In this document: piece after piece, positions 11,720 to 12,063 of the stretch
Position numbering within the stretch: position 1 is the first letter of the stretch
Layout of the letters: every line of letters begins with the position of its first letter
Origin: an uncultured Clostridia bacterium
GTDB taxonomy: Bacteria; Bacillota_A; Clostridia; TANB77; CAG-508
Direction: 5' to 3'
DNA: 12,063 nucleotides
Assembly (NCBI GenBank): GCA_944393165.1
Contig: CALXZF010000064.1
Location: 1 to 12,063 of the forward strand
Notes under the pieces: generated by a model
What the model was told of the DNA's origin: nothing
The model's input: only the letters and a program-made list of their open reading frames with translations
Databases searched by the model: none
Program-made: the position numbers and the translations under genes

Positions 11720-11764
11720 AAAAAGCGTGAACAAAAGGGACACTCCCTTTTGTTCACGCTTTTT
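11720..11764. terminator. Bidirectional terminator with a 21-bp perfect stem
   Basis: The arms 11720-11740 and 11744-11764 are exact reverse complements around loop CAC. The 5' arm starts AAAAAGCGTGAAC and the 3' arm ends GTTCACGCTTTTT, giving an A-run and T-run for both directions. It begins 2 nt after the fabI stop, and the stop codon of the minus-strand spoIIID fragment (11754-11756) lies within the stem. It therefore serves both convergent genes. Confidence 0.92.
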
Positions 11765-11930
11765 GCTGGTGACTGTATTTTAATTTTGTTGCCAATCCTC
11801 CTCTAATGTGTCTCTCTGCTTTATTTTCATCTAAAACGCTTCTTACTTCAGCTGCTAAGTAAGGGCTGATTTTTTGTAATCTTTCGCTAACATCTTTGTG
11901 TACCGTTGTTACTTTTCGTAACGGTAGAAT
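11754..11930 (-). pseudogene. spoIIID: 3' part of a spoIIID-like sporulation regulator, N-terminus missing
   Basis: The frame reads TVHKDVSERLQKISP and later KAERHIRGGLATKLKY, which matches the C-terminal half of SpoIIID, the mother-cell transcription factor of sporulation. Full-length SpoIIID is about 85-95 residues, with its helix-turn-helix ending at a STVHKD-type sequence. Here the frame begins, after a stop at about 11931-11933, with unrelated ILPLRKVT and has no start codon, so the first half and part of the recognition helix are absent. About 50 native-looking residues remain. The break coincides with the end of another gene on the same strand and with an inverted repeat. It may be a remnant, or the 3' exon-like half of a gene split by an excisable element. 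Confidence 0.75.
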
Positions 11931-12063
11931 TTATATAATCAAAATTCGTAATTACTGTAGGCTGACTTCCAATTTCATTTAATAATTTTAATCTTACTTC
12001 TACATTTCCTTCGCTATCTACTTCAATGACATCTATTATTGTTTTAAGCATTGCATTTGTAAT
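11887..12063 (-). CDS. C-terminal end of a gene entering from the right, possibly a site-specific recombinase (partial)
   Basis: An open frame of 58 codons runs from the window edge to TAG at 11887-11889. It contains MLKTIIDVIEV and VDSEGNVEVRLKLL and ends TKSNNGTQRC. The strand-rich segment resembles the C-terminal tails of large serine recombinases, but no catalytic motif is within the window, so this is only a suggestion. It runs out of frame over the start of the spoIIID-like fragment, the arrangement expected when a recombinase gene lies at the edge of its own element. Confidence 0.45.
   Translation of the reverse strand: MTNAMLKTIIDVIEVDSEGNVEVRLKLLNEIGSQPTVITNFDYINSTVTKSNNGTQRC
11902..11925. 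other. Inverted repeat at the junction, candidate attachment site
   Basis: ACCGTTGTTAC (11902-11912) faces GTAACGGT (11918-11925) across TTTTC. The arms match perfectly over 8 bp apart from a 3-nt GTT duplication in the left arm. The repeat lies exactly where spoIIID-like sequence ends and the possible recombinase gene tail begins. Imperfect inverted repeats are typical of serine recombinase attachment sites. Confidence 0.35.

Follow-up and report, generated by a model that had tools for sequence, protein, structure and literature searches.

A probable skin-like and apparently mobilisable element in the mother-cell regulator gene spoIIID of uncultured Clostridia

Background

The right end of the window (the whole stretch of 12,063 nucleotides that was analysed) raises a simple question: why does the gene of the sporulation regulator SpoIIID begin in its middle, directly behind the end of another gene? 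A preliminary description of this DNA had suggested that a skin-type element splits spoIIID at this point. The genes known as targets of such intervening elements are sigK, spsM, spoVFB, gerE and yabG, according to the available part of a recent paper (PMC10747680). We found no description of a spoIIID-intervening element in the open-access literature, which leaves aside preprints and most subscription journals, and in three papers (PMC5595907, PMC6957869 and PMC4191935) none of the mentions of spoIIID is about an interrupted gene.

The reading that we favour, with a probability of around 0.7, is that spoIIID carries an intervening element of the skin type, apparently mobilisable, and that recombination of attL with attR in the mother cell would rejoin the gene; that the element excises, and when, is an inference.

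Results and discussion

The junction in the window

The C-terminal half of spoIIID lies on the minus strand at 11754..11903, from VHKD to the stop codon TGA at 11756-11754, and its upstream helix-turn-helix half is absent according to translation, tblastn and the reading of the upstream sequence. Translation of 11754-11921 on this strand gives LRKVTT, then VHKDVSERLQKISPYLAAEVRSVLDENKAERHIRGGLATKLKYSHQQKA and then a stop. From VHKD onward the product is SpoIIID, 90% and 96% identical to the two best relatives (tblastn), and the residues LRKVTT ahead of it are not those of the SpoIIID helix-turn-helix. A second reading frame enters from the window edge and stops at 11889-11887. This is the 3'-end of a large serine recombinase gene (11887..12063, minus strand), which continues past the window edge and whose TAG stop codon lies inside the spoIIID half, the two frames sharing 17 bases. 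Over 55 residues its C-terminus shares 84% identity with the end of a 526 aa protein from a related element (locus L067), and it is from this full-length relative, with its Resolvase, Recombinase and zinc-ribbon recombinase domains, that the domains are assigned. The preliminary description had noted the clean SpoIIID half behind an out-of-frame foreign gene tail, which these comparisons confirm. Another identity of the gene ending at 11887 would have removed its idea of an element, and the gene proved to be that of a recombinase.

At this junction we predict an attR site. Its shared core GTACA would be at 11899..11903 (minus strand), as suggested by the in-silico crossover and by the attP symmetry of related elements. 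The predicted crossover dinucleotide CA falls at 11900-11899, a position read from the window sequence, and the element-side arm CGTTACGAAAAGTAAC at 11908..11923 (minus strand) is the same in the attR sites of L067 and L070. The remaining part of the recombinase gene and the N-half of spoIIID of this genome lie past the window end at 12063.

Between the end of spoIIID and a convergent enoyl-ACP-reductase-like gene, at 11721-11763, there is also a perfect inverted repeat of 20 bp whose loop has 3 bases; it resembles a two-way terminator.

Recurrence of the split gene in related genomes

In order to look at relatives, the 49-residue C-half was compared with genome contigs and the best 80 of at least 476 related stretches were kept, so that the counts describe a sample of close relatives and not a prevalence. 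Upstream reading found a foreign tail at exactly the same codon in 37 of these 80 loci, typically with the residues LPLRKVTS or LPLRKVTT; the same kind of tail at an identical codon so many times means that the junction is not due to chance. The other 43 loci have the usual helix-turn-helix ahead of the C-half. A +1 shift is needed to reach it in L053, L054, L058 and L065, and L026 begins inside the gene.

The SpoIIID family search of the 37 interrupted genomes found the C-half in all of them, the N-half in 31 and a full-length gene in 6, the N-half of genome G027 being below the family cut-off because of a +1 shift. The preliminary description had proposed to look for another intact spoIIID: 31 of the 37 assemblies have no full-length match, in metagenome-assembled genomes (MAGs) that may be incomplete, and the six full-length genes found are all divergent, with 40-61% identity to the typical sequence. 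It had also foreseen, beyond 12063, a serine recombinase on the minus strand and an N-half in the same orientation. This arrangement was found in four related genomes (G009, G027, G032 and G034), where both halves are on one contig and strand, 4.9-12.5 kb apart, with the recombinase between them.

Recombinases with at least 81% identity to the reference were found in at least 21 of the 37 interrupted genomes among the matches listed (E limit 1e-20), 12 of them nearly whole at 90-100% and nine partial. None was listed for the other 16 genomes, as would be expected of contigs that stop at the junction. Among the 43 unsplit genomes, no relative of the recombinase exceeded 35% identity across most of its length, or 42% across one fragment. 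The element tail was present in 30 of the 37 interrupted genomes vs 2 of the 43 unsplit ones (G055 and G062).

The C-terminal region of the recombinase matched 1,095 database proteins. Among the best 120 of them, 115 have C-termini that fit an entry into spoIIID, although 28 of these stop at once and give little information, 2 continue into the tail of the element in the manner of an attP and 3 end otherwise. The split is therefore not rare, with 37 of the best 80 loci and 1,095 matching proteins.

Some cases stand apart. Three recombinases (P0215, P0226 and P0229) have an end that belongs neither to spoIIID nor to the tail of the element, and in two tail proteins (P0041 and P0097) there is no SpoIIID half; all five are possible other insertion sites or circle junctions. 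Moreover, G011 seems to have two different SpoIIID-family genes that elements of this family have split (N-halves L131 and L135, C-halves L019 and L146), provided that its bin is not a mixture.

Attachment sites and predicted excision

An in-silico crossover of attL and attR at GTACA restored an in-frame SpoIIID of 85, 90 and 88 aa in the three elements tried; G027 was left out because its N-half needs a +1 shift. The suggestion of a skin-type element thus gained support. Serine integrases usually have attP sites with symmetric arms. When the three predicted attP sites were compared with their own complement, 12, 10 and 15 of 20 positions matched, and the symmetry centred on the core CA was the best of ten centres each time, vs 4-9 of 20 for attB, attL and attR at the same centre. 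The related genomes thus show four features of an intervening element, namely same-orientation halves, a site-specific recombinase, a frame restored in silico and the lack of another close intact copy. Points against this reading include the possible substitute paralogue in 6 of the 37 genomes and the recombinase not assembled in 16.

The attP pattern was found in 0 of 39 genomes, 0 of 188 loci and no viral contig, and no clean attB allele was found beside an integrated one. Two of the best 120 of the 1,095 recombinase clusters, and possibly P0041, look like attP.

Two genomes were considered for excised alleles and set aside. G055 carries a SpoIIID-tail junction on one contig (L167) and an unsplit spoIIID on another (L041:1-313), and we rejected them as integrated and excised alleles side by side because only 176 bases, those ahead of the core, are identical. 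Since the unsplit copy lies directly behind an element cargo gene, it points to a restoring duplication or a chimera and not to excision. In G062 there are two similar but different alleles, which we did not retain as excision evidence either. A second copy of the tail in G029 (L169:1810-1932), away from spoIIID and behind unrelated upstream sequence, may be a relic or another insertion site.

Anatomy and cargo of the element

From left to right, the order is the spoIIID promoter, start codon and helix-turn-helix, the core, the in-frame tail, the cargo, the recombinase, the core again and the C-half. The element is 4,854 bp long in G032, 7,611 bp in G034, 12,517 bp in G009 and about 8.1 kb in G027. 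That of G021 is larger, as 9.5 kb from the N-side and 12.7 kb of fetched C-side sequence did not meet.

Of the 26 elements compared, whole or partial, nine have a small ORF that we call c2 (61-74 codons as listed). Six pieces, which come from five genomes, encode a Mob_Pre relaxase, and five encode a replication-like protein with a helix-turn-helix. In G009, G027 and G028 the relaxase shares its element with the recombinase; in several elements, including those of G032 and G034, the relaxase was not found. Among the other cargo are NERD-helicase, AlbA_2 and DUF2971 proteins, with matches to defence library models. No phage structural family was found among the element proteins scanned with Pfam (a subset of the ORFs), no recombinase relative was found in viral contigs, and the best matches of the recombinase in plasmid and phage records were all below 60% identity. 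The element looks like a mobilisable rather than a phage-like unit.

The recombinase gene is open through codon 510 in all 12 nearly whole copies, with a pooled pN of 0.042 vs a pS of 0.432. A sigma-A-like promoter, TTGCTT-17-TAAAAT, could be recognised by eye in six of the 13 upstream regions printed. Synonymous divergence was lower in the recombinases than in their hosts (pS 0.43 vs 0.55, lower in 47 of 55 pairs), values which are too near saturation to prove transfer. A similar stretch of around 100 bp, with short inverted repeats seen by eye, precedes c2 in L049, L067, L022 and L051; Rfam gave no match in it, nor anything in the window or the elements, and its hits were three tRNAs near the far end of the L070 locus.

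The SpoIIID-tail chimera and the selection on its parts

On the left side of the element, the spoIIID promoter, start codon and helix-turn-helix are fused in frame to a 40-residue tail that belongs to the element, which gives a chimera of roughly 80 aa. A SpoIIID domain is present in 107 of the 109 database proteins that have the tail. Upstream of 25 of the 29 N-halves there is a block of the type TTCTA...AATACAA. The promoter of C. difficile spoIIID was mapped as a sigma-E promoter, ATA-N16-CATATATA, in the available part of PMC3789822, and as the likeness to it is in the -10 part only, sigma-E control would be an extrapolation in these genomes.

While the element is integrated, translation of the tail begins at the SpoIIID start. 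Read upstream from the junction, 21 of the 37 cases reach an in-frame start ahead of any stop, 13 reach a stop first and 3 reach neither; the junction of the window also reaches a stop first. In the 21 cases, the tail in a free circle and the C-half in situ may therefore sometimes be translated without the SpoIIID start. The idea that the tail can be translated solely via the SpoIIID start codon holds for 13 of the 37 junctions at most, and we dropped it as a general rule. The predicted structure of the chimera has a mean pLDDT of 72, and its tail is modelled as a beta hairpin with modest confidence. A sequence search of the tail against solved structures gave one chance-level match (E 0.56), and a fold search with the chimera gave none at E 0.001 or better, SpoIIID itself (2l0k, E 0.032) being the first.

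Regarding selection, all 37 interrupted loci keep an open frame across 45 or more codons of the C-half. Their pooled dN/dS over 44 codons was 0.079, vs 0.071 in 41 unsplit loci (L026 and L041 were left out), and the N-halves gave 0.147 (34 codons, 15 N-halves). Between-species values also cover the period that preceded the insertion, and a recent dead insertion could give the same picture. This weakens the case for the spoIIID halves and not for the tail, because the tail belongs to the element. In 14 tails the dN/dS was 0.155 for the last 26 codons and 0.306 for the whole length, the divergent L116 and the truncated or disrupted tails, such as those of G006 and G016, being excluded. The tail is disrupted in these two genomes and divergent in G033, and the inserts found in several tails preserve the frame. 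In c2 the dN/dS was 0.187 over 42 codons of nine elements. Both gene halves, the recombinase and the SpoIIID-fused tail thus look conserved as proteins.

A model for the excision

Putting this together, the end of the window would be attR, the right junction of an integrative element which in many uncultured Clostridia appears to enter spoIIID at a fixed codon, the Val-His of KSTVHKD, and to carry the gene of a large serine recombinase at the right-hand edge. In the mother cell attL and attR would recombine at GTACA, removing the element and leaving spoIIID intact. In C. difficile, the accessible part of PMC5025042 describes the skin recombinase as constitutive and the direction of the reaction as set by a small factor. 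Similarly, the recombinase of this element would be made constitutively from its sigma-A-like promoter and wait for a directionality factor.

SpoIIID itself cannot be the trigger of excision here. The chimera is our favoured candidate for the directionality factor: it would be made once sigma-E activates spoIIID and be lost after excision. It is a tentative idea, which we put at about one chance in three, that the helix-turn-helix with its tail triggers or times excision, as a self-erasing developmental switch that borrows the sigma-E promoter of spoIIID. The small ORF c2 is the main alternative, a second candidate directionality factor. If the idea is right, the gene of the chimera lasts only as long as the element stays in place and brings about its own end when spoIIID is rebuilt, and the mother-cell programme would be gated in a broad group of gut Clostridia.

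Alternative explanations

An ordinary integrative mobilisable element might simply use spoIIID as its attachment site, excise on transfer or at random and leave sporulation to chance. The relaxase in 6 and the replication-like protein in 5 of the 26 pieces speak for this, as do the sigma-A-like promoter seen in six of 13 recombinase upstream regions and the single attachment site across many hosts. We nevertheless consider it unlikely on two indirect grounds: the SpoIIID-tail chimera is a conserved protein under the spoIIID promoter, and the known sporulation-gene elements of the same layout are timed, as the available parts of the papers cited below describe. Less probable still is that these are dead insertions, with spoIIID lost in lineages that no longer sporulate. 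The open state of all 37 C-halves, under a selection like that of unsplit genes, the 12 of 12 open recombinases and a spoIVA above the cut-off in 34 of the 37 interrupted genomes argue against such a loss, for which one can invoke the small genomes of these MAG lineages (1.1-2.0 Mb), the attP pattern found in 0 of 39 genomes, excision thus not being seen, and the sigK family, above the cut-off in only 17 of 37, several of the others being broken up by a +1 shift or the end of a contig.

It might also be that the chimera or a SpoIIID paralogue does the job of SpoIIID and that rejoining is unnecessary. The chimera is conserved and retains the helix-turn-helix, six of the 37 genomes have a full-length paralogue and the unsplit copy of G055 lies beside element sequence, yet this explanation, which we hold to be very improbable, leaves the open and conserved state of all 37 C-halves unexplained, and the paralogues are only 40-61% identical and missing from 31 of the 37 assemblies. 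Finally, a chimera could arise in assembly at a sequence common to several genomes. In 17 of the 37 interrupted cases vs 1 of the 43 unsplit ones the contig begins no more than 150 bp from the junction, hence assemblers do break there, and many broken contig ends enter element sequence alike in several bins. Against an artefact, the junction is base-precise and repeated in many separate MAGs, four contigs span the whole element, and the close relatives of the recombinase are confined to interrupted genomes, so we give it hardly any credit. The same breaks could mean a mixture of integrated and excised forms, but we do not count them as proof of it, since sequence shared between genomes explains them as well.

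Comparison with known elements

The intervening element that we favour resembles skin in sigK of B. subtilis and C. difficile (PMC5025042, in the part available) in that a large serine recombinase element splits the gene of a mother-cell regulator, the halves have the same orientation and the crossover restores the frame. It differs in its target, as spoIIID acts one step earlier than sigK, in the absence of phage genes among the proteins scanned and in the fusion of the N-half to a conserved tail. In addition, the direction factor of the C. difficile skin requires SpoIIID according to the same partial text, which cannot apply to an element in spoIIID. From its earlier action and the need for it in C. 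difficile skin excision, it follows that the spoIIID element would gate an earlier mother-cell step. How much may depend on it can be seen in a C. difficile spoIIID mutant, with 3x10^2 heat-resistant spores per ml vs 9x10^5 (PMC3789822, available part).

The gin element in gerE of B. cereus is of non-phage nature, as ours appears to be, and its target too is the very small gene of a transcription factor (225 bp for gerE), whereas it has 28.6 kb and three recombinases, as given in the accessible text of PMC5595907, compared with about 4.9-12.5 kb and one recombinase of this family in the spoIIID elements. Other sporulation-gene intervening elements are yin in yabG of C. botulinum, SPbeta in spsM and vfbin in spoVFB; their targets are late or structural genes and they are described as prophage or prophage-like in the available part of PMC10747680.

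A further case is a scaffold from human feces recorded as 'Bacteriophage sp.' (MT838016.1). Its recombinase is 46% identical over 506 positions and the 3'-end of the gene runs into the C-half of a spoIIID at that very codon, although recombinase and host are divergent, the N-half is absent from the scaffold and the record is unannotated. By ORF reading, apparent bacterial sporulation genes adjoin the recombinase and the C-half (L189, 2065-3793). This scaffold is probably the junction of a bacterial element and not a phage, judging by its gene content.

The family also yields large serine recombinases with predicted attB, attP, attL and attR sites, and a testable idea, namely that a mobile element senses the developmental clock of its host via a fused host protein.

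Frameshifts at CGG and a break in spoIVA

In these AT-rich Clostridia an extra C ahead of a glycine codon (CGGN) was observed to cause a +1 shift in spoIIID, spoIVA and sigK, after different preceding codons. The alleles are six in spoIIID (L053, L054, L058, L065, L049:1813-1993 and L168), and there are others in spoIVA (L171-L174) and sigK (L175-L178). Of the 258,560 codons in the long open frames of loci L001-L080, 106 are CGG, while 54 of the 207 regions in which an ORF goes on in the +1 frame contain a CGG in frame. A codon so rare overall and yet present in these switch regions suggests lineage-wide +1 decoding at CGG, and quadruplet or +1 decoding of CGGN as glycine throughout the lineage is possible. 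In the window there is no CGG in 3,340 codons of the main ORFs. A search with one pattern for a quadruplet-reading tRNA for CGG found it in 0 of 26 genomes. In other low-GC Firmicutes CGG has been reassigned or is apparently unread, as stated in the available part of PMC8629427.

Finally, spoIVA is cut near residue 400 in G024 (L180 and L181) and G033 (L182 and L183), with the parts on different contigs. Other large serine recombinase genes lie directly beside the break in both genomes, which is perhaps another intervening element.
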